21,896 bases of DNA, from IMG/VR virus record IMGVR_UViG_3300011181_000002, positions 1 through 21,896 of that record; one strand, 5' to 3'. Positions within the stretch are counted from its first letter, which is position 1. Each line of letters starts with the position of its first letter. The translations under genes were made by a program, and so were the position numbers. This stretch comes from a virus. Shown here piece after piece: positions 394 to 21,896 of this stretch. A model generated the notes under the pieces. The model ran no database searches, was not told the origin of the DNA, and saw nothing but the letters and a program-made list of their open reading frames with translations.

Positions 394-428
394 CGCACCC
401 CGGTGCGTACCGATAATTGCGGGCGGCT

Positions 429-3110
429 ATGAATCCGCAGCTTCACAGCGATATCCGGGAACGACTCCTCAAGGACTACGGGTTCCGGGAGCACGGCCGC
501 TACCTGCAGAAGGGGCGCTGCCCGGACTGCGACAAGCGCGAGCTGTTTGTGAACGCCGAGGCGCCGTGGATGCTCAAGTGCGGCCGCGAGAACCGTTGCG
601 GCTCGCAATTCCACGTCAAGGACATCTTCCCCGAGCTGTTCGAGAACTGGAGCGATCGCTACGGCCGGCCCGATAGCGCGGCCGCGAAGGCCGAGCCCGC
701 CAGCCAGACGCCCGTGGCGGATGCCTACCTGCGCTATGGCCGCGGCTTCGACCTGCGGCTGATTGCGGGCTGGTACAGCCAGGAGACGTTCTACGACCCG
801 AGGATCGAGGCGGCGAGCGCGACCGTGCGAGTGCCGCTAGCCAACGGCCACTGGGAGCGCCTCATCGACCGGCCCGAGCGCTTCGGCAAGCAGAAGGCGC
901 GGATCAAGTCCGGTACCGAGTACGGCGGGCAGTGGTGGCAGCCGCCGTCGATGACGCTCACCGAGCACGACGAGATCTGGATCGTCGAGGGCATCTTTGA
1001 CGCGATCGCGCTGCTGCACGTCGGCCTCGCCGCGGTCTCCGCGATCTCGTGCAACAACTACCCGGGCGACGCGCTCGCCGGCCTGGCCGAGCAGTGCCGG
1101 GCCTCGGACAAGGCGCGCCCGACGCTGGTCTGGGCGCTCGACAGCGACAAGGCCGGCCGGACCTACACGATCAAGCACGCACGCCGCGCCCGTGCCGAGG
1201 GCTGGGAGTGCCGGGCGGCGCAGGTGCCCGAGGTCCGCGGCGGCAAGCGCGACTGGAACGATGCGCTGCAGCGCGGCGAGCTCACCGACGAGGACCTCGA
1301 GGAGTACCGCTACCACGGCGCGCTGCTGATCGCGCAGAACGCGGCCGAGAAGGCGCTGCTGATGTACCAGCGGCGCGAGCGCCGCGAGTTCCCGTTCGAG
1401 TTCAGCCGGCGGGCCTTCTGGTTCAAGCTCGACATGGACAAATATGAGCGCGCCGTGAAGGAGATCGACGCGGACGACGGCGAGCAGCTCTCGCCCGAGC
1501 AGCGCGAGCAGGCGCTGCGCCAGGCGGGCGTGGTCACGGAGATCGCCTCCTGCTGGCCGCGGGCGCTGTACTACCAGGCCAACGCGATCACAGACGAGGC
1601 CTGGTACTACTACCGGGTCGACTTCCCGCACGACGGCCAACCGGTTCAGGACACCTTCACCTCCGGACAGCTCACGAGCGCGGCCGAGTTCAAGAAGCGG
1701 CTGATGCACATCGCCCCGGGCGCGCTGTGGGAAGGCACCACACAGCAGCTCGACCGGATGATGCGCGAGCAGACGTTCAACATCCGCCGCGTCGACACCA
1801 TCGACTTCATCGGCTACTCGCGGGAGCACGGCACGTGGATCTTCGGCGACCTCGCCGTGCAGGGCGGCGAGGTCCACCGGATCAACGACGACGAGTTCTT
1901 TGAGCTGCGCCGAGGGCTCAGCCTCAAGACGCTCTCACAGTCGGTCCCGCTGGCGATCAACGACGACCGCGACGCCTACCGCAGCGACTGGGCCAACCTG
2001 GTCTGGAAGGCCTTCGGCGCGCAGGGCGTGCTGGCGATCGCGTTCTGGCTCGGCTCGTTGTTCGCCGAGCAGATCCGCGCCGAGCAGAAGTCCTTCCCCT
2101 TCCTCGAGATCGTCGGCGAGCCGGGATCCGGCAAGTCCACGCTGATCGAGTTCCTCTGGAAGCTCGTCGGCCGGCGTGACTACGAGGGTTTCGACCCGAG
2201 CAAGGCGACCCAGGCGGCGCGGGCGCGCAACTTCGCCCAAGTCTCCGGGCTGCCGGTCGTGCTCATCGAGTCCGACCGTGACCAGTCCGAGAACGCGAAG
2301 GGCCGGCAGTTCGACTGGGACGAGCTGAAGACCGCGTACAACGGCCGCAGCGTCCGCGCACGCGGTCACAAGAACACGGGCAACGACACCTACGAGCCGC
2401 CCTTCCGCGGCGCCGTGGTGATCTCCCAGAACGCCGCGGTCAACGCCTCGGACGCGATCCTGCAGCGCATCGTCCACCTCGAGTTCACGCGCGAGACCCA
2501 CACCCCCGAGACCAAGGAACTCTCCGAGCGACTGGAACGGATCCCGGTCGAGGACGTCAGCGGCTTCGCGCTCGCGGCCACCACGCGCGAACGCAAGCTG
2601 CTGGACCTCGTCGCGGAGAAGACGCCCGTCTACGAGGACGGCATCGCCTCCCTGCCCGAGATCCGCATGCACCGCATCGCGAAGAACCACGGCCAGCTCA
2701 TGGCCCTGGTCGAGTGCCTCGGCCCGAACGGGCTCGGGCTGCTGCCGTCTAGCGCCGTCGGCGAAGCCATGACGCTGCTCGAGGACATGGCCCGCGAGCG
2801 CCAGCAGGCGATCAACGCGGACCACCCGATCGTCCAGGAGTTCTGGGAGGCGTTCGACCACGTCGAAAACGCCGCCGGGTTCCCCGTGCTGAACCACTAC
2901 CGGCCGGACCACAAAGAGATCGCGATCAACCTCAAGCACTTCGAGCAGGTGACCGCCGAGAAGAAGCTGCGCGTCCCGACGACCACCGAGCTCAAACGCC
3001 ACCTCAAGGCCAGCAAGGTCCGCAAGTTCGTCGAATCCAACCGTGCCGTGCGCTCCACGATCCACGACGGGCGGACCGTCAAATGCTGGGTATTCGAGCG
3101 GGAGTCCTGA
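429..3110 (+). CDS. TOPRIM primase-helicase (phage replication protein)
   Basis: Probable bifunctional primase and helicase of about 893 residues that would drive phage DNA replication. The N-terminus has a zinc ribbon (C31, C34, C51, C57). A TOPRIM domain follows, with its acidic residues in the context VEGIFDA (E187) and ALDSDKAGR (D238, D240). The C-terminal half has a P-loop ATPase with Walker A GEPGSGKST at residues 563-571 and a Walker-B-like LPVVLIESD about 45 residues later. The ATG at 429 is preferred to the in-frame TTG at 417. The architecture is that of primase-helicases in phiCTX/RSA1-like P2 relatives and replaces the P2 gpA rolling-circle nickase; no nickase was found in the window. 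The stop lies two bases before the antirepressor start, so the genes are coupled. Confidence 0.88.
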   Translation: MNPQLHSDIRERLLKDYGFREHGRYLQKGRCPDCDKRELFVNAEAPWMLKCGRENRCGSQFHVKDIFPELFENWSDRYGRPDSAAAKAEPASQTPVADAYLRYGRGFDLRLIAGWYSQETFYDPRIEAASATVRVPLANGHWERLIDRPERFGKQKARIKSGTEYGGQWWQPPSMTLTEHDEIWIVEGIFDAIALLHVGLAAVSAISCNNYPGDALAGLAEQCRASDKARPTLVWALDSDKAGRTYTIKHARRARAEGWECRAAQVPEVRGGKRDWNDALQRGELTDEDLEEYRYHGALLIAQNAAEKALLMYQRRERREFPFEFSRRAFWFKLDMDKYERAVKEIDADDGEQLSPEQREQALRQAGVVTEIASCWPRALYYQANAITDEAWYYYRVDFPHDGQPVQDTFTSGQLTSAAEFKKRLMHIAPGALWEGTTQQLDRMMREQTFNIRRVDTIDFIGYSREHGTWIFGDLAVQGGEVHRINDDEFFELRRGLSLKTLSQSVPLAINDDRDAYRSDWANLVWKAFGAQGVLAIAFWLGSLFAEQIRAEQKSFPFLEIVGEPGSGKSTLIEFLWKLVGRRDYEGFDPSKATQAARARNFAQVSGLPVVLIESDRDQSENAKGRQFDWDELKTAYNGRSVRARGHKNTGNDTYEPPFRGAVVISQNAAVNASDAILQRIVHLEFTRETHTPETKELSERLERIPVEDVSGFALAATTRERKLLDLVAEKTPVYEDGIASLPEIRMHRIAKNHGQLMALVECLGPNGLGLLPSSAVGEAMTLLEDMARERQQAINADHPIVQEFWEAFDHVENAAGFPVLNHYRPDHKEIAINLKHFEQVTAEKKLRVPTTTELKRHLKASKVRKFVESNRAVRSTIHDGRTVKCWVFERES

Positions 3111-6833: not shown

Positions 6834-7190
6834 ATGGCCGTAGAAGCCTATCCCCTGCAGTGGCCCGAGGGTGTCGATCGGACGCACCCGAGCAAGCGCG
6901 AGCTCGCTCGCTTCTCGAAGAAGACAGGCGAGCGCATCGCCACCCAGAGACGCCTGACCGTGGCCGATGCGCTGCAGCGCCTGCACGACGAGATCGGGCC
7001 GAAGAAGCTACCGGCCAAGCATCTGGTCGTTTCGTCGAACGTCCCAACCCGGCAAGACGGCCTGCCGTACTCGAACGCGCGCGAGCCCGACGATCCCGGC
7101 GTCGCCGTCTACTTCCAGCTCGCCGGCGAACCGCACTGCCTCCCGTGCGACACCTTCACCCGCGTCGCCGACAACATCGCAGCGATCGCC
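6834..7190 (+). pseudogene. J-domain-like phage protein, C-terminus deleted
   Basis: The first 119 residues match a conserved phage family often annotated as J-domain-containing: AYPLQWPEG near the start, HLVVSSNVPTRQDGLPYS, then REPDDPGVAVYF, CLPCDTFTR and DNIAAIA. Family members normally continue with roughly KHIEALRG..RWG and a further C-terminal region. Here, right after IAAIA (codon at 7188), the sequence turns into out-of-frame integrase DNA, and the frame runs on meaninglessly to a stop at 7341-7343. A strong ribosome site (GAGGAGGA) precedes the ATG at 6834. The gene is therefore truncated by a deletion junction. Family function is not established. Confidence 0.75.
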
Positions 7191-7993
7191 CGATCACCGA
7201 GATCGAGCCGATGGAATGGCTGGAGATCCTGCGCAAGCTGGAACGCGCCGGCAAGCACGAGGCCAAGCGCCAGGTGCGCTCGATCGCCGGCGACATCTAC
7301 CGGCTGGCCATCGTCACCGGCCGCGCGACCACGAACCCGCTGAGCGAGATCGGGGTCGCCCTGCTCCCGTCGAAGCAGAAGCACCATCCCCACATCTCGG
7401 GAGATGAGCTGCCGGATCTGCTCAAGGCGATCTCCGCGTACGAGGGCAGCCAGCTCGTGCGCGCCGGGCTCCAGCTGCTGATGCTCACGGCGGCGCGCCC
7501 GGGCGAGCTGCGTGCCGCGGCCTGGGAGGAGATCGACCTCGAGGAGGGGATCTGGCGCGTGCCGCCGGAGCGGATGAAGACGGGGCGCCCGCACCGCGTG
7601 CCCCTGCCTCGCCAGGCCGTGGCCATCCTGAACGAGATCCGCCCGCTCGCCGGCCCCGGGCCGCTGGTATTCCCCGGCCGCAACGACCGGACCAAACCGC
7701 TCTCCGACGCCGCCTTCACGCGGGCCCTGAACCGCATGGGCTACCACGGCCGCCACGCGCCGCACGGGACGCGCCACCTGGTGGCCACCGAGCTGAAGGA
7801 GCTGCGCTACCCCGGCGAGTGGATCGAGGCGCAGCTGTCGCACAAGCTCCCGGGGATCGGCGGCGTCTACACGCACGCCGAGCACATGGCGCCCGGCCAG
7901 CGCCCGGCAATGATGCAGCACTGGGCCGATCACCTGGATTCCCTCGAGGCCGACAACGTCGTCCAGCTCCCGACCGCGGCTCAGAACCCGTAA
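7187..7993 (+). pseudogene. int: Tyrosine integrase, N-terminally truncated
   Basis: This is the C-terminal two thirds of a DUF4102-type phage integrase. Homology begins abruptly at RPITEIEP (7187), inside the core-binding domain, so roughly the first 130-150 residues, including the arm-binding domain, are missing. The catalytic domain looks complete. Counting from the only sensible ATG at 7211 (260 residues), the active-site set is R96 (TAARPGELR), K123 (ERMKTGRPH), H185 and R188 (HGTRH), H211 (QLSHK) and Y220 (GGVYTHAEH). The family integrates phage DNA by strand exchange through that tyrosine. Without the arm-binding part it is probably unable to recombine at attP, though a short product could still be made. 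Confidence 0.85.
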
Positions 7994-9742: not shown

Positions 9743-11514
9743 TCGTACATCTCCATCAAGGACTGTTCGGCGCCGGAGGCCGGGCCGTCGAGGGGTTCGT
9801 TGTAAAGCGCGTGCATCGCGGCCCACGCGAGATCGGCGTGGCCGGTGGTGTTGTTCCGGCCGGACCGGTACGTCAGCTGGCCGCCGGCATCGGTCAGCGA
9901 TCGGCGGATCGCCATGAACGACTGCGCAAGATCGGTCCAGCCGGAGTCGAATTCGAGGCGCCCGCGGTCGATCACGTTCTGGGCCTTCATCACCAACCGG
10001 GCCTTGCTGTCCGGCGTGTACCGGAAGCGCACCACCGTCGGGAAGAACTTCTCGACGAGCTCGGCGACCAGGTCGCCGATGCCGGTGGTGTCGATGCCGA
10101 TGTAGGTCACGTTGTAGCGCTGGGTGACCTTGCGGACCTCTTCGGCCTGCTCTTGGTAGTCCAGGCCGCGCAGGCGTTTGCGCTCGACGGCTCGGTGCTT
10201 GCCCTGGCGGTTGCGGGCCGCGGCGATCACGACCAGGCCGGCGCCGTCGCCGTCCTCGCTATCGCCGGACGGGTCGTAGCCGACCCAGACCTCTTCGTCG
10301 GCGATCGGCCGTTGGGCGAAGGGCTTGAAGTCGCGCCAGACTTCCCAGCTGTCGACCATGCAGGCCTGCAGCGAGGCGAGCGGGAACACCGACAGGCTGT
10401 CGTCCACGAAGTGGCAGAGCAGCAGGTTGTTGTATTCCTCCAGGCTGTACTCGAGCTCGAGCTGCTCAAGGTCGAAGAGATCACAGCCGCCGGCGATCGC
10501 ATCCTCGACGGTGACGATCTGCCGCCACTGGCCGTCGGCGCAGGCCGCTCCGTTCTTCAGCGCCTCGTGACTGGTGTCGATCTCGACGCGCTCGGCCTTC
10601 GGCCGGCGCTTGTTGTAGAGCTCGCCGGTCCAGAACGGGTAGCCCTCGTGGCCGACCGAACTCGGCGTGCTGAAGTAGGTCTGGGTCCACTGCTTGTGCA
10701 TCGCCATGCCCGAGGCGACCTTGCGGAACTCCTGGAAGCGCTGGATCCAGAAGTACTCGTCCATGTAGATATCGCCGTGGTAGCTCTGGGCCGTCCGGGC
10801 GTTCGTGCCAAGGAAGTAGAGGCAGGCCCCGTTGGCTAGCACCAGCGGATCGCCCTTCAGCTCGACCCCGGTCACCTCGAACACGAACTGGACGATGTAC
10901 TGGCGGAAGACATGGGCCTGCGCCTTCGAGGCCGACATGAATATCTTGTTCTTCCCCGTCTGCAGCGCGTCGGTAACTGCCTCGCGGGCGAAGTACCAGG
11001 TCGCGCCGATCTGTCGGCTCTTGAGGAGGTTTCGGATCCGGTGGTCCTGCCCCGCCTGATACCAGGTGCGCTGGTAAGCGAACAGCGCATCCTCGAACGC
11101 ATCCCGGACCGCCTGCGCGCCCTCGTCGCCGACGTCGTTTTTCGCTTTCTTGCGCTTCGGCTTCGCGGCGTCCTTGCGATCGCGCTTGGGGTTCAGGTCT
11201 GACTCGGCGCCGGTTTCCTGGTAACGGTGCACGCGTGCCAGACGCTCGATCTGCCGCCCGAGCAGGTCGATCTCCTTGAAGTCGCGCCCCTCCTTCAGAT
11301 CCTTGTTGATCAGCTGAACCATGCGCGCCTCGAGGCTTCCCTCGACGCGCTCGGTCGGCGTGGCCGCGTCCCAGCCGTCGCGCCGCTTCCACGAATGCAC
11401 CGTCGCAGGCTTCTCGTTAAGCAGCTCCGCGATGCGCGCGATGCGCCACCCCTGCCAGTAGAGGTTGCGCGCATGCGTGCGTGGAGACTCGATCGTGTCC
11501 GGGAGAGAACTCAT
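9739..11514 (-). CDS. P: Terminase large subunit, ATPase/nuclease (P2 gpP family)
   Basis: This 591-residue motor protein matches P2 gpP (590 residues) in length and plan. An N-terminal helix-turn-helix (about residues 15-48, RIARIAELLNEKPATVHSW) is followed by a basic linker. The ATPase has an adenine/Walker A region LLKSRQIGAT (163-172) and Walker B DIYMDE (248-253). The nuclease domain carries aspartates at VGYDPSGD (D414), YIGIDTTG (D475) and GHADLAW near the C-terminus. It cuts at cos and pumps DNA into the prohead through the portal. The start at 11514 has no clear Shine-Dalgarno sequence; its distance from the upstream dyad at 11562 equals that of gene V from its dyad. Confidence 0.95.
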   Translation of the reverse strand: MSSLPDTIESPRTHARNLYWQGWRIARIAELLNEKPATVHSWKRRDGWDAATPTERVEGSLEARMVQLINKDLKEGRDFKEIDLLGRQIERLARVHRYQETGAESDLNPKRDRKDAAKPKRKKAKNDVGDEGAQAVRDAFEDALFAYQRTWYQAGQDHRIRNLLKSRQIGATWYFAREAVTDALQTGKNKIFMSASKAQAHVFRQYIVQFVFEVTGVELKGDPLVLANGACLYFLGTNARTAQSYHGDIYMDEYFWIQRFQEFRKVASGMAMHKQWTQTYFSTPSSVGHEGYPFWTGELYNKRRPKAERVEIDTSHEALKNGAACADGQWRQIVTVEDAIAGGCDLFDLEQLELEYSLEEYNNLLLCHFVDDSLSVFPLASLQACMVDSWEVWRDFKPFAQRPIADEEVWVGYDPSGDSEDGDGAGLVVIAAARNRQGKHRAVERKRLRGLDYQEQAEEVRKVTQRYNVTYIGIDTTGIGDLVAELVEKFFPTVVRFRYTPDSKARLVMKAQNVIDRGRLEFDSGWTDLAQSFMAIRRSLTDAGGQLTYRSGRNNTTGHADLAWAAMHALYNEPLDGPASGAEQSLMEMYE

Positions 11515-11561
11515 GCAGGCAGCGTACCCGTGCGCCTCGCGGCGCCCCTGCAGCGTGGAGC

Positions 11562-11581
11562 GGTAAGCGCAGCGCCTTACC
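11562..11581. promoter_or_regulatory. GGTAAG-N8-CTTACC dyad at the P/O late promoters
   Basis: GGTAAG at 11562-11567 and CTTACC at 11576-11581 form a perfect six-base dyad with an eight-base spacer, between the divergent terminase and scaffold genes. The same dyad with nearly the same spacer recurs before gene V. In P2 these are the sites of the PP/PO and PV promoters, activated by Ogr through a TGT-N12-ACA dyad near -55. By position this is the likely late-activator operator, serving both directions. Confidence 0.65.
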
Positions 11582-11665
11582 CTCCGCGCGCGTTGTCGCC
11601 GCGAGCGTCAGCGTCGAACCTGATCACGACACAGAAATCAGGCATTTGCCCGAGGATTGACGGCC

Positions 11666-12499
11666 ATGGCGAAGAAGTTCCGCGTAGCGACCGAAGGGGC
11701 GACCACTGACGGTCGCAAGCTTGCTCGGGAAAGCCTCGAGCAGATGGCGAAGAACTACGACCCGAAGCGCTACGGCGCCCGGGTCTGGCTCGAGCACATG
11801 CGCGGCATGTTCCCCGATGGCCCCTTCGCGGCGCTCGGCGACGTGCTCTCGCTGTCGACCGGCGAGATCAAGGACGGCACGGACTCCGGCAAGGTCGGTC
11901 TCTACGCCGAGATCGAGCCGACCGAGAAGCTCAAGGAGATCAACCAGCAGCGCCAGAAGATCTACTCGAGCATCGAGGTGGACCCCGAGTTCGCGGACAC
12001 CGGCGAACCCTACATGGTCGGCATGGCCGTGACGGACTCGCCGGCGAGCCTCGGTACCGAGATGCTCCAGTTCTCCGTGCAGCAGGGCGAGAACAGCCCG
12101 CTCGCGGCGCGCAAGCAGAGCGCGCACAACGTGTTCACCGCAGCCGCCGAGGTCGACTTCGACTTCTCTGAGGAGGAGCAGCCGGGCGGCGACAAACCGA
12201 AGCTGCTCGACAACGTGAAGGCCATGTTCAAGCGGCACCGCCAGACGGGCGACGCCCAGATGCAGGCCTTCCGCGACGACGTCGAATCGACCCTCGAACT
12301 GTTCGTGAAGGAAGCCGGTGAGCTGCGAGCCGAACTCGACAAGCGTCCGACCGCGGAGCGGTTCGACCAGCTCAAGGCCGACCACGACAAGCTGCAGAAG
12401 GATTTCTCCGGGCTGCACAGCCAGCTCGACCTGACCCCGGACACGCCGGGCCGCGAAACGGCGACCGGCCAGGACGGCGCAGTCGAGACCGACTGCTGA
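11666..12499 (+). CDS. O: Capsid scaffold/autoprotease (P2 gpO family)
   Basis: A 277-residue scaffold protein with serine protease activity, close to P2 gpO (284). The N-terminal protease half has the expected triad: D15 (ATTDGR), H44 (WLEHMRG) and a serine in QKIYSSIEV (S102 most likely). SPASLGTEML closes the protease domain. The C-terminal half is a charged, helical scaffold region with a likely coiled coil (about residues 210-255). It guides gpN assembly, cleaves capsid components, then cleaves itself. The ATG at 11666 follows a GAGGA site; a TTG at 11657 is less likely. It is the first gene of the rightward late operon. Confidence 0.93.
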   Translation: MAKKFRVATEGATTDGRKLARESLEQMAKNYDPKRYGARVWLEHMRGMFPDGPFAALGDVLSLSTGEIKDGTDSGKVGLYAEIEPTEKLKEINQQRQKIYSSIEVDPEFADTGEPYMVGMAVTDSPASLGTEMLQFSVQQGENSPLAARKQSAHNVFTAAAEVDFDFSEEEQPGGDKPKLLDNVKAMFKRHRQTGDAQMQAFRDDVESTLELFVKEAGELRAELDKRPTAERFDQLKADHDKLQKDFSGLHSQLDLTPDTPGRETATGQDGAVETDC

Positions 12500-12555
12500 T
12501 TCGCAGCCCTGCACCGACCGCACCGATAGAGACTTGACTCAAAGAGGCCAGCGTC

Positions 12556-13572
12556 ATGCGTAACGACACCCGCATCGAGTACGAGCGATTCACCCAGCGC
12601 GTGGCGCAGCTCAACGGCGTCTCGGATGCAACGAAGACATTCGCCGTCGAGCCGAGCGTCCAGCAGACGCTGGAACAGAAGATCCAGGAGTCGAGTTCCT
12701 TCCTCGGCCGGGTCAACGTCATCGGCGTGGACGAGCTCAAGGGGCAGAAGCTCAAGCTCGGCACCTCCGGCCCGATCGCCGGGCGGACCGACGTCTCGGC
12801 GAACGACCGCCAGACCCGGGACCTGTCGGACCTGACCGGAGAGGACTACGAGTGCCGCTTCACCGAGTTCGACACGCACATCCCGTACGCCACGCTCGAC
12901 GCCTGGGCGAAGTTCCGCAACTTCCAGACGATGCTGCGCAACGCCATCGTCCGCCAGCAGGCGCTCGACCGGATCATGATCGGGCTCAACGGCACCTCGG
13001 CTGCCACGGCGACTGACCGCGTCGCCAACCCGCTGCTCGAGGACGTCAACATCGGCTGGCTGCAGGCCTACCGGAACAACGCCCCCGCCCGGGTGATGAC
13101 CGAGGGTGCGAACACCGGCGTGATCCAGGTCGGCGCCGACGGCGACTACGCCAACCTCGACGCCCTGGTCTACGACGCCGTCAACGAGCTGATTGAGCCT
13201 TGGCACCGCGAGTCGACCGACCTGGTCGCCATCTGCGGCCGGAAGCTGCTCGCCGACAAGTACTTCCCGCTGGTCGACCAGGACCACAAGCCGACCGAGC
13301 ACCGCGCGCTGGACATGATCATCAGCCAGAAGCGCATGGGCGGCCAGCAGGCGGTCCAGGTGCCCTTCGTGCCCGATGGCGCGATCCTGGTTACCACGCT
13401 CGACAACCTCTCCCTCTACTTTCAGCGCGAGGGGCGCCGCCGGCACGTCGAGGAGAGCCCGAAGCGCAACCGGATCGAGAACTACGAGTCCTCGAACGAC
13501 GCGTACGTGGTCGAGGATTACGGCGCCGGTTGCCTGGTCGAGAACATCTCGATCGGCGACTTCAGCGTATAA
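12556..13572 (+). CDS. N: Major capsid protein (P2 gpN family)
   Basis: A 338-residue HK97-fold capsid protein of the P2 gpN family (P2: 357). It opens MRNDTRIEYERFTQRVAQLN, has the FAVEPSVQQTLEQKIQESS-type segment at about residues 29-47, then FLGRVNVIGVDELKGQK and the DRIMIGLNGTSAA motif in the middle. It ends with a strand-rich domain containing DAYVVEDYGAGCLVENI. P2 gpN is trimmed at its N-terminus by gpO after assembly, so the first ~30 residues may be removed here too. It lies between scaffold and small terminase genes as in P2. Ribosome binding site is weak (AGAGG). Confidence 0.95.
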   Translation: MRNDTRIEYERFTQRVAQLNGVSDATKTFAVEPSVQQTLEQKIQESSSFLGRVNVIGVDELKGQKLKLGTSGPIAGRTDVSANDRQTRDLSDLTGEDYECRFTEFDTHIPYATLDAWAKFRNFQTMLRNAIVRQQALDRIMIGLNGTSAATATDRVANPLLEDVNIGWLQAYRNNAPARVMTEGANTGVIQVGADGDYANLDALVYDAVNELIEPWHRESTDLVAICGRKLLADKYFPLVDQDHKPTEHRALDMIISQKRMGGQQAVQVPFVPDGAILVTTLDNLSLYFQREGRRRHVEESPKRNRIENYESSNDAYVVEDYGAGCLVENISIGDFSV

Positions 13573-18587: not shown

Positions 18588-18940
18588 TGGCGGGCATGAG
18601 CCGGCACACAGGGAAACGGCTCGACGAGCTGGCGCACATCCGCCAGAGCGTCGCCGACATCCTCACCACCCCGATCGGCTCGCGCGTGATGCGCCGCGAG
18701 TACGGCTCGCGCCTGCCCGAGCTTATCGATCAGCCGCTCACCGGTGCCACGCTGCTGCGCGCCTACGCCGCGACCACGGACGCGATCATCCGCTGGGAGC
18801 TGCGCATCAAAGTCCGCGCGATCACCCGCCTGGTGCATACCGATCGCCCCGGCGCCGTCACGCTCGGGCTGAACGGCGTGCGTACCGATTCCGGTGAGGC
18901 GTTCTCGATGGAAGTCCCGCTGTCGGGAGGTGGGGCATGA
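18587..18940 (+). CDS. W: Baseplate protein W (gp25-like)
   Basis: A 117-residue baseplate wedge protein of the P2 gpW / T4 gp25 family (P2: 115). The conserved core is HIRQSVADILTTPIGSRVMR, then EYGSRLPELIDQP, with EPR-type strands at the end. It nucleates the sheath at the baseplate. The ATG at 18587 overlaps the V stop; an ATG at 18596 is an alternative. It overlaps the start of J by four bases. Confidence 0.93.
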   Translation: MAGMSRHTGKRLDELAHIRQSVADILTTPIGSRVMRREYGSRLPELIDQPLTGATLLRAYAATTDAIIRWELRIKVRAITRLVHTDRPGAVTLGLNGVRTDSGEAFSMEVPLSGGGA

Positions 18941-19830
18941 CGACCATCGATCTGTCGCAGCTCCCCGCCCCGGCCGTCGTCGAGGAGATCGACTTCGAGA
19001 CGATCCTCGCCGAGCGCAAGGCCGAATTCCTGGCGCGCTATCCCGAGGCTGAAGAAGAGATCGACCTGGAGTCGTCGGCGCTCGCGAAGATGCTCGAGGA
19101 GAACGCCTACCGCGAGGTCGGTTGGCGTCAGCGGGTCAACGAGGCAGCGCGCGCGGTCCTGCTAGCGTTCTCCAGTGGCTCGGACCTCGACCAGGTCGCC
19201 GCGAACCTCGAAACCGAGCGCCTACTGATCGACCCGGGCGACCCGGACGCCAACCCGCCGGTCGAGCCGACCTATGAGTCGGACAAGGACCTGCGCCAGC
19301 GCGCGCAGAGCGCCTTCGAGGGCCTGTCCGTCGCCGGCCCCCGCTCCGCCTACGTCGTGCACGCCCTGTCGGCCGACGGCCGCGTGGCCGACGCCACGGC
19401 CACGAGCCCGAACCCGGCCGAGGCCCTGGTCACCATCCTCTCGCGCGAAGGCGACGGCACCGCCGCGCAGGATCTGCTCGACGCCGTGGAAGCGGACCTG
19501 TCGGCCGAGGACGTACGCCCCGTCGCGGACCGCCTCACGGTGCAATCGGCCGAAATCGTCGACTATGCGGTCGACGCGACCCTGTACATCTACCCGGGAC
19601 CCGAGGCCGAGCCGATCCTCGACGAGGCGAACGCGCGCCTGGACGCATACACGGAAGAGCAACGCCGCCTGGGGCGCGACATCCGCCGCTCCGCCCTGCA
19701 CGCCGCCCTGCACGCGGAAGGCGTGCAGCGGGTGGAGCTGAACTCGCCGGCGGCGGACGTCGTGCTCGACGAGACCCAGGCGGCGCACTGCACCGCCAAG
19801 ACCGCGGTCGTCGGGGGCACCGATGAGTAG
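18937..19830 (+). CDS. J: Baseplate assembly protein J
   Basis: A 297-residue baseplate wedge protein of the gpJ / Baseplate_J family (P2: 302). Family stretches are IDLSQLPAPAVVEEIDFETI at the start, RVNEAARAVLLAFSSGSDLD, the conserved LRQRAQSAFEGLSVAGPRSAY, and DVRPVADRLTVQSAE. The C-terminal strand-rich part contains the HAEGVQRVELNSPAAD segment. Together with W it forms the wedges around the V spike. It ends with TAG at 19828, overlapping the start of gene I by eight bases. Confidence 0.95.
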   Translation: MTTIDLSQLPAPAVVEEIDFETILAERKAEFLARYPEAEEEIDLESSALAKMLEENAYREVGWRQRVNEAARAVLLAFSSGSDLDQVAANLETERLLIDPGDPDANPPVEPTYESDKDLRQRAQSAFEGLSVAGPRSAYVVHALSADGRVADATATSPNPAEALVTILSREGDGTAAQDLLDAVEADLSAEDVRPVADRLTVQSAEIVDYAVDATLYIYPGPEAEPILDEANARLDAYTEEQRRLGRDIRRSALHAALHAEGVQRVELNSPAADVVLDETQAAHCTAKTAVVGGTDE

Positions 19831-20437
19831 CCTGCTGCCACCCAACTCGACGCCGCTCGAGCGCGCCGCCACCGAGGCGATGGCCGAGATCAAGCGCGTC
19901 GAGATCCCGCTGCGCAAGCTCTGGAATCCGGATACGTGCCCGGTGGAGGTGCTGCCGTACCTCGCCTGGGCATTCAGCGTCGACCGCTGGGATTCGACCT
20001 GGCTGGAAGCCACCAAGCGCGAGGTCGTGCGCTCGAGCTACTACATCCACCGGCGCAAGGGGACGATCGCCGCGCTGCGGCGCGTGGTCGAGCCGCTCGG
20101 CTACCTGCTCGAGGTCACCGAATGGTGGGAGCTGGACCCGGAGGGTACGCCCGGCACCTTCCAGGTGGCCATCGGCGTGCTCGACAGCGGCATCACCGAC
20201 CAGATGTTCACCGAGCTCGAGCGCCTGCTCGACGACGCCAAGCCGGTCTCGCGGCATCTGACCGGTCTGGACATCTACGGCGAGACGCGCGGCACAGGCT
20301 ACGTCGGCGCCGGCACGTACACCGGCGAGATCTCGACCGTATACCCCTATCTCGCCACCGACGCCGAAGTGAGCGGTTTCCTCTACTTCGGCGTGGCTGA
20401 TCACACCATCGACACCGCGAGCGTGTACCCACAATGA
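19823..20437 (+). CDS. I: Tail protein I
   Basis: A 204-residue tail protein of the gpI family (P2: 176), a baseplate component linking J to the tail fibre. It opens SLLPPNSTPLERAATEAMAE and shows LWNPDTCPVEVLPYLAWAFS and VDRWDSTWLEA, hallmarks of the family. The C-terminus has a GYVGAGTYTGEIS-like segment (about residue 155-170) resembling the added strand-rich tails seen in some relatives, which explains the extra length. Its stop overlaps the H start (ATGA at 20434). Confidence 0.93.
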   Translation: MSSLLPPNSTPLERAATEAMAEIKRVEIPLRKLWNPDTCPVEVLPYLAWAFSVDRWDSTWLEATKREVVRSSYYIHRRKGTIAALRRVVEPLGYLLEVTEWWELDPEGTPGTFQVAIGVLDSGITDQMFTELERLLDDAKPVSRHLTGLDIYGETRGTGYVGAGTYTGEISTVYPYLATDAEVSGFLYFGVADHTIDTASVYPQ

Positions 20438-21111
20438 GCACTTACTACACCGTCATCACCGACGTCGGCCAGGCGAAGCTGGCCAATGCCACGGCCCTGG
20501 GGGAGACCGTCGAGCTGACGGCGCTTGCCGTGGGCGATGGCGGCGGCGCGACGCCCGTCCCGGATTCCGAGGCCGAGGCGCTCGTGAACCAGCAGCGCTC
20601 GGCCGCGATCAACCAGGTCAGCGTCGACCCGGACAACCCCAACTACATCATCTGCGAGCAGGTGATCCCCGAGGACGTCGGCGGCTGGTGGATCCGCGAG
20701 GTCGGCATCTTCGACGCCGACGGCGACCTGATCGCCTACGGCAACTTCCCCGAGACCTACAAGCCGCAACTCGAGGAAGGCTCCGGCCGCACCCAGACCA
20801 TCCGCGTCGTGATCATGGTCAGCGACACGGCCGCCATCACGCTCAAGATCGATCCGTCGATCGTGTTGGCCACGCGCGAATATGCCGATACCGTGGTAGC
20901 CGACCATGCCGCCAGCCGCAACCACCCGGCTGCAACGACGTCGGCGCAGGGCATGGTCGAGATGGCCACCAGCCAGGAGCACCTGAACGGAACCCGTTCC
21001 GACCGAGCCACGCACCCGGCCGGCGTCAAGGCGGCGGTGGAGAGCAGGTTCTCGATAACCACCCACAAGCTCGTCGTGATCGACGGCGTCCTCGCGATGG
21101 AGGAGCTCTAA
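20434..21111 (+). CDS. H: Short tail fibre protein (P2 gpH N-terminal part)
   Basis: A 225-residue tail fibre protein, one third the size of P2 gpH (669). The N-terminal phage_tail fibre domain (about residues 1-150) has YYTVITDVGQAKLANATALG, GWWIREVGIFDADGDLIAYG and YKPQLEEGSGRTQTIRV. A single fibre repeat (NHPAATTSAQGMVEMATSQE, then THPAGVKAAVE) follows. The long shaft and the C-terminal receptor-binding tip seen in P2 are absent. The protein may act only as an adaptor attaching the receptor-binding protein encoded downstream (21459 onward). It looks complete, ending with TAA, so this seems evolved rather than a frameshift. Confidence 0.85.
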   Translation: MSTYYTVITDVGQAKLANATALGETVELTALAVGDGGGATPVPDSEAEALVNQQRSAAINQVSVDPDNPNYIICEQVIPEDVGGWWIREVGIFDADGDLIAYGNFPETYKPQLEEGSGRTQTIRVVIMVSDTAAITLKIDPSIVLATREYADTVVADHAASRNHPAATTSAQGMVEMATSQEHLNGTRSDRATHPAGVKAAVESRFSITTHKLVVIDGVLAMEEL

Positions 21112-21459
21112 ATGTACGGCTACCCCAAAGTCATCAACACCCGCGAGGACGTCGACCTGCTGGTCGACTATCTCGGCACGATCTCGGCCACGCCCGAGCT
21201 GGTCGCGCGCGGCCTTGCCTACCTCAAGGGCCTGCGCGACAAAACGAAGCACTACGTCTTCGACCGCGTGCTGGCCGACGGCGAGGATCCGGACGGCGGC
21301 GAGCCGGACTACCGGGTACTGGAGGAGGAGGCCGACGACGGGAGCACGGTGCGTCGCCAGTACACCCTCGAGGACAACCCGCGCGCCCCGATTCACCGCC
21401 TCGGTTTCACGGTGGACGAGGTGCAGGCGCTGATCGACCAGATTGAAGGAGCACAGTAA
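21112..21459 (+). CDS. Unknown tail-region protein, 115 aa
   Basis: A 115-residue acidic protein beginning MYGYPKVINTREDVDLLVDYLG, an opening I recall from small phage proteins found beside tail fibre genes, but without a named family. It is helical at the start (residues 10-45), has an acidic loop (EDPDGGEPD) and ends in a helix VDEVQALIDQIEGAQ. It starts at the first base after the H stop and its own TAA overlaps the next ATG (21457-21461). The position between the short fibre and the receptor-binding gene suggests a tail fibre chaperone or connector. That is inference from context. Confidence 0.65.
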   Translation: MYGYPKVINTREDVDLLVDYLGTISATPELVARGLAYLKGLRDKTKHYVFDRVLADGEDPDGGEPDYRVLEEEADDGSTVRRQYTLEDNPRAPIHRLGFTVDEVQALIDQIEGAQ

Positions 21460-21896
21460 TGGCGGCAGGCGACAAGATCGTGATCCCGGCGCAGGCCGCC
21501 GGCTTCGTGAGCCTCTTCGGGTACATGGGCAAGGGCACCGGTGACACGCTCGACCTCCCCGAAGGCATGGTCAACATCGGCGGCAACAGCCTGGGGTATC
21601 TGCTCGCCGCGCAGACCGACTGGGACCCGGTTGCCAACAGCGACGGCTCGTTCGCCGGCCTCGCGCTCGGCGACGACGCCTACATCTACGCCGTGGCCGA
21701 TGCCTCCGGCACGGCGCAGTGGGTGGCTAGCAAGAACTCCACTGTGCCGGATGGGGAGACGGCGGACACCTCGCGCAAGATCGGCGGCTTCCACTACGGC
21801 CGCGTGCGCACCGTGGCCGAGCGCTACGACACCGGCATCACCCCGGCCACGCAGATCGTGCCCAACAGCGTGTGGGACCTGAAGCACCGCCCGACC
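21459..21896 (+). CDS. Tail receptor-binding protein, N-terminus; likely C-type-lectin-fold (Mtd-like), cut by window edge
   Basis: The first 146 residues of a tail protein open to the right edge. After a beta-prism-like start (MAAGDKIVIPAQ, LDLPEGMVNIGG) comes a carrier segment with DAYIYAVADAS and SKNSTVPDGETADTSRKIGG, then FHYGRVR (to residue 117) and QIVPNSVWDLKHRP at residues 132-145. From memory, the TADTSRKIGGFH..(~25 aa)..SVWDLKHRP pattern is the segment just before the C-type lectin (FGE-sulfatase-like) domain in tail proteins that serve as targets of diversity-generating retroelements, related to Bordetella phage Mtd. It probably makes the host contact that the short H fibre lacks. 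The lectin domain, variable repeat and any reverse transcriptase would lie outside this window. Confidence 0.72.
   Translation, partial: MAAGDKIVIPAQAAGFVSLFGYMGKGTGDTLDLPEGMVNIGGNSLGYLLAAQTDWDPVANSDGSFAGLALGDDAYIYAVADASGTAQWVASKNSTVPDGETADTSRKIGGFHYGRVRTVAERYDTGITPATQIVPNSVWDLKHRPT

Follow-up and report, generated by a model that had tools for sequence, protein, structure and literature searches.

An Mtd-family receptor-binding protein gene at the edge of a P2-like phage fragment whose relatives carry a diversity-generating retroelement

Introduction

Among the targets of diversity-generating retroelements (DGRs), the earliest to become known was Mtd, the tropism determinant of Bordetella phage BPP-1, whose tail is of the podovirus type, unlike that of the P2-like phage described here. 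One study surveyed over 30,000 DGRs and found three lineages mainly in phages, apparently aimed at attachment proteins (PMC8144416), and the presence of a GRNA-loop hairpin after the variable repeat is a published rule for phage DGRs (PMC3240598). P2-type tails with DGRs have been published for Pseudoalteromonas phages ACA1 and ACA2, with VHML as a relative, in a 2023 paper whose authors stated that, apart from their ACA phages, no P2-like phage characterised so far possessed a DGR (PMC10612066).

Here, we analysed a 21,896-nucleotide stretch (hereafter the window) that makes up the complete virus record IMGVR_UViG_3300011181_000002 and is itself a fragment, its right flank being read only through relatives. 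We consider it highly likely that the product of the gene at the right edge is a receptor-binding protein of the Mtd family from a P2-like temperate phage, that the variable repeat of its relatives is rewritten by a DGR, and that the window's phage carries or carried such a cassette.

Results

The window holds a probable phage replication gene for an 897-amino-acid Toprim-domain protein (417-3110), and a phage integrase gene lies in its left part (about 7049-7993). Pfam matches then revealed the P2 gene order, with inverted portal and terminase genes, GPO, Phage_cap_P2, small terminase, GPL, Tail_X, GpR, V, J, I and the N-terminus of H (of the P2 tail and head genes, the search covered O, N, M, L, X, R, V, J, I and H). 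On the plus strand, these include a P2-family major capsid protein (12556-13572; PF05125, E 7.7e-146), a baseplate J-like gene in its P2 map position (18937-19830; PF04865, E 4.2e-22), a P2-type tail protein I (19823-20437; PF09684, E 1.2e-54) and a short H-like tail-fibre gene of 225 amino acids (20434-21111; PF12571 Phage_tail_fib, E 8.4e-63). By this gene order the window phage is P2-like (Peduoviridae-type), and both the order and the Pfam matches bear out the setting proposed in the initial annotation. That annotation also held that H has lost its tip, which agrees with the PF12571 match covering residues 1-148: the short H represents the N-terminal baseplate-attachment part only, without a receptor-binding tip, and longer PHROG tail-fibre families align to it over the first part only, mostly about 200 positions. 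Its placement of H just upstream of the target was nearly right, the immediate neighbour being a 115-amino-acid gene (21112-21459, plus strand) that overlaps the target start by one base.

The target gene (21459-21896, plus strand) starts with ATG and, being open at the contig end, covers 146 N-terminal residues of a receptor-binding protein of the Mtd family. It matched the Pfam family PF21916 'Mtd second domain' over residues 27-140 (90.4 bits, cut-off 24.6; E 1.2e-25), PHROG 11262 'tail protein' with an E-value of 1.5e-19 and, in a phmmer search of PDB sequences, the Mtd variants 1yu0-1yu4 and 2iou with E-values of about 1e-6. The two signatures pointed out beforehand, DTSRKIGGFH (residues 103-112) and SVWDLKHRP (residues 137-145), were located as claimed, and both belong to the best-conserved positions of a 37-sequence family alignment, in which K107, G109, G110, F111 and H112 as well as S137, W139, R144 and P145 are invariant or near-invariant. 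Such matches are well beyond chance, and the edge gene thus encodes the front part of an Mtd-family protein. The N-terminal beta-prism domain Mtd_N (PF18454), which does match BPP-1 Mtd, gave no match at E<=1 in the window protein, in the related proteins of contigs L004 and L006 or in that of Chromohalobacter phage YPCBV-1, and the window protein is therefore a relative of Mtd and not a full-architecture Mtd.

Completion of the protein was possible because three viral contigs (L003, L004 and L005) match the window DNA at 99.6-99.8% identity, and L004 supplies the full 355-amino-acid target followed by the start of an avd gene. The L004 protein combines PF21916 with a C-terminus of the formylglycine-generating enzyme (FGE)/C-type-lectin kind. 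Its AlphaFold2 model (pLDDT 89.5) found five Mtd structures, 1yu0-1yu4, as the best Foldseek matches in the PDB (E 3e-20 to 3e-19, TM 0.65-0.68); C-type-lectin-like FGE proteins came next, along with TaqVP, a DGR variable protein from Thermus aquaticus. The lectin fold anticipated for the window gene was thus recovered in the model of its 99.8%-identical relative: the completed protein is predicted to adopt the Mtd fold, with a C-terminal C-type-lectin domain that holds the variable repeat.

The cassette itself was seen in more distant relatives. In L006 (78% identity), the target (10001-11068) is followed by avd (11065-11427), a template repeat (11455-11583) and a reverse transcriptase (RT) gene (11755-12786), and then by tail sheath and tube genes, which places the cassette in the P2 interval between H and FI. 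The same target-avd-template-RT order occurs in L007, L015, YPCBV-1 and many others, with all three elements within about 1.8 kb of the target and with an intact avd in L006, L007 and L015. The Avd proteins of the relatives matched bAvd (PF22296) and NCBIfam NF033474 above cut-off, and the RT matched RVT_1 above cut-off; that of L006 is 42% identical to BPP-1 Brt and 77% identical to the YPCBV-1 enzyme. RVT_1 was present in 14 of the 22 related records, and those lacking it include L004, L014 and L084, which may be fragments. Among host genomes, that of Halomonas saccharevitans (L116), a culturable lysogen, has the cassette intact. In Achromobacter pulmonis (L117), Avd and RT lie about 1.1 kb and about 1.8 kb past the Mtd-like gene, the usual distances being ~0 and ~0.7 kb, perhaps with a second target in between.

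When template and variable repeats were compared without any filter on the base, 508 of 545 mismatches (93%) in 46 distinct pairs fell on template adenines, although A makes up 20% of the template letters; host genomes gave 544 of 563 (97%) in 46 pairs. Because many of the loci are close relatives, these pairs are not independent events, but the adenine bias in the relatives is overwhelming. A hairpin with a GRNA loop, CCCCGC-GACA-GCGGGG, follows the stop codon at a distance of ~27 bases in L004 and close relatives of it, in agreement with the published rule (PMC3240598); it is present in L004, L006, L014, L015, L018 and L019, and similar stems occur in L016, L017, L024, L028, L029, L034 and YPCBV-1. 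The same strict test was negative in most of the more distant groups.

Given the Mtd family membership, the fold and the cassettes in relatives, the identification of the edge gene as a DGR target is supported. The further expectation of a template repeat, avd and RT to the right of this gene held in relatives and not in L004, the nearest relative extending far enough, where avd is truncated and neither template nor RT was seen; the window ends before the position of all three elements and holds none of them.

Comparison of L004 with L014, a different phage with a different target N-terminal part, revealed that L004:3253-4346 and L014:10298-11391 are 100% identical over 1094 bp, and blastn gave no further match between the two outside this segment. 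The segment begins at window base 21774, so that its start (21774-21896, plus strand; codons RKIGGFHYG...) is, via L004, 100% identical in L014, whereas the window and L014 proteins are 67% identical over their matched residues. One C-terminal half is therefore joined to two kinds of N-terminal/tail attachment module at RKIGGFHYG, and each combination is found in at least two assemblies (L003 and L004 for one, L014 and L015 for the other). This pattern suggests a recent recombination at the conserved motif that exchanged the receptor-binding half. Such an exchange would also explain why the window and L005 end 123 and 109 bases, respectively, past this point. A limited literature search returned no description of half-gene exchange of this kind.

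The window phage's own cassette, lying outside the fragment, may be broken. The reading that competes best with ours accepts an Mtd-type target and proposes that the DGR of this lineage is dead, leaving a fixed tip that changes only by recombination with other phages. We regard this as a serious possibility, if somewhat short of an even chance, and give about the same weight to its particular version, in which an illegitimate junction cut avd and the template and RT are gone. In its favour, avd is broken after about 72 codons in L004, L014 and L084 and runs into the end of an H-like gene followed by a second small gene, the two sides of the junction sharing two bases or so at the most (L004:4220-4346, L084:400-1340, L014:11266-11395), and none of the three records has an RT. 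Beyond the junction, L084 has a second Mtd start and what is left of another, different Mtd C-terminus before it reaches the sheath, tube and tape measure genes. Furthermore, L004 and L014, which come from different samples, do not differ in their variable repeats, in keeping with a frozen target, and L084 shares the mutated 3' half of this repeat, its 5' half being of other origin. Exact-pattern scans of viral contigs found no window-group contig with an intact avd and RT.

By contrast, several observations speak against a dead element. The window-type contig L003 is identical to L004 over the first 640 bases of the target and has a different variable repeat, although it stops inside this repeat and a one-base shift, possibly a sequencing error, precedes it. 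L015, which is 98% identical over the target C-terminal half and avd, carries an intact cassette. A mis-join or a tandem duplication is possible, since the ends of L004 and L014 lie roughly one k-mer length inside a repeated segment: L004 could join two co-occurring phages, their common segment being 100% identical, or a duplication could put an intact cassette past its end.

Whatever its present state, diversification at some past time follows from the repeat itself, since 14 of the 15 sites at which the L004 variable repeat differs from the L015 template (taken as a proxy for that of L003 and L004) are at template adenines. The same count bears on a second alternative, namely that the edge gene codes for a common tail protein of Mtd-like fold and has at no time been targeted by a DGR. 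Mtd-like genes without a nearby RT do exist, both of the Thalassospira type (L022-L033, L122-L124) and in L021, L121 and L125. However, the adenine-specific changes in L004, together with the avd start and GRNA hairpin that follow its target, contradict this alternative unless L003 and L004 belong to another phage group than the window, and we consider it very improbable. Finally, the notion of a formylglycine-generating/EgtB (SUMF1) family enzyme, as the YPCBV-1 homologue is annotated in GenBank, is scarcely credible: the C-terminal domain of the L004 protein matches PF03781 weakly (23.1 bits, just below the cut-off of 23.3) and FGE and EgtB chains are among its fold matches, but these enzymes have the C-type-lectin-like fold in common with Mtd, the Mtd structures match better by about 14 orders of magnitude in E-value, and the gene is located in a tail operon.

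The 115-amino-acid gene in front of the target gave no usable Pfam, PHROG or NCBIfam match. Of the 137 loci, from viral contigs and host genomes, in which the position immediately before the Mtd-like gene is visible, 125 have a small gene of this family there (further examples are L006:9667-9999, L014:9630-9980 and L071:9483-9770). Its members have 90-160 amino acids, most of them starting with M.G.P....(T/S)(R/K).D, and were found in genomes of Halomonas, Achromobacter, Pusillimonas, Bordetella hinzii, Halothiobacillus, Halanaerobium, Lachnospiraceae and Treponema. Since the small gene is also present where no RT is nearby (10 of 98), it belongs with the tail protein and not with the mutator. 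The AlphaFold2 model of the small protein (pLDDT 90) found nothing convincing among PDB folds, the best Foldseek E-value being 0.64 and the best VIA-align Z-score of 5.4 (rmsd 3.1, 63 aligned) lying below a meaningful level; among viral models it had one match, a 142-amino-acid uncharacterised myovirus protein (E 2.5e-4). Its profile had no match in BPP-1, VP58.5 or ACA1, and a scan of genome contigs with the small protein returned nothing, whereas the Mtd N-terminus as a query did give matches. The gene is absent where Mtd has its own N-terminal domain, as in BPP-1.

From its position we infer that the small protein is an adaptor or assembly partner of the receptor-binding protein, and a chaperone role fits the data equally well as an adaptor. 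More tentatively, and with rather more doubt than belief, it could represent an undescribed adaptor/assembly family that links a detachable receptor-binding protein of the Mtd type to a tail fibre that is separate and truncated, and accompanies Mtd-like genes in phages of Proteobacteria, Firmicutes, Halanaerobiales and spirochaetes, with a DGR nearby or not. No description of the family was found in a limited literature search.

Two further observations concern the arrangement of this gene. In Sideroxydans (L173), the order is reversed: an ORF resembling the small gene (7539-7865) follows the target ORF, and an RT-like match is found close by. Thalassospira-type loci (L022, L023, L025, L026, L030-L033 and L122-L124) have Mtd-like genes 54-60% identical to the window N-terminus, and no small gene, avd, template or RT was found in their available flanks. 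Among Mtd-like proteins without a small gene, an extra N-terminal segment is present in L022 and L122 and absent in others. The idea that loss of the small gene is always paired with a fused attachment domain fits L022, L025 and L122 and fails for L030-L033, L123 and L124, which makes it a partial pattern.

Discussion

In the working model for this lineage, the short H would attach to the baseplate and the Mtd-like protein would take over, in the P2 tail map, the host recognition of the missing H tip, the role of H and its link to the Mtd-like protein both being conjectural. The variable repeat is formed by the last ~40 codons of the target. By analogy with the biochemistry of BPP-1, RT and Avd in the relatives would copy the downstream template repeat with errors at adenines (mutagenic retrohoming), and the mutated copy would replace the variable repeat, whose invariant 3' end would provide the anchor together with the GRNA-loop hairpin that comes just after it. 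Receptor switching could follow from such replacement, in the window phage as well if its own cassette was, or still is, in place. Two questions become accessible in this group: in what way an unnamed partner would hold an Mtd-type tip on a contractile tail, and how the exchange of whole receptor-binding halves between phages goes together with a local mutator acting on the binding surface.

With the described P2-like Pseudoalteromonas phages ACA1 and ACA2 (PMC10612066) and the Vibrio phages VHML and VP58.5, the window group has in common an attachment-only H and a separate DGR-targeted antireceptor beside it, and VP58.5 has its cassette between H and the sheath gene, as in L006. However, the ACA1 and VP58.5 targets lack PF21916, match the window-group profile weakly (E ~1e-3) and have no small gene between H and target; in the ACA phages, in addition, translation of the template gives the RT an N-terminal extension (PMC10612066). 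YPCBV-1 (OP380511) has a matching cassette, with a 116-amino-acid small gene, an Mtd-like target, Avd, template and RT in the same order, a target N-terminus 58.5% identical to that of the window and 14 of 14 template/variable mismatches at A. By contrast, the baseplate genes before its target are annotated as gp46/gp47 and DUF2313, in Mu-like nomenclature, and not as P2 J-I-H. BPP-1 resembles the group in the Mtd second domain, the overall fold, the C-terminal lectin domain with its variable repeat, the target-avd-template-RT order, the adenine-biased changes, the RT and the published GRNA-loop hairpin after the variable repeat, while its Mtd has the Mtd_N domain that went undetected in L004, L006 and YPCBV-1, and no small upstream gene accompanies it. 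Given that DGR-targeted receptor-binding proteins and DGRs in P2-type tails have both been published, a P2-like lineage with an Mtd-type, DGR-diversified receptor-binding protein adds to a known kind.
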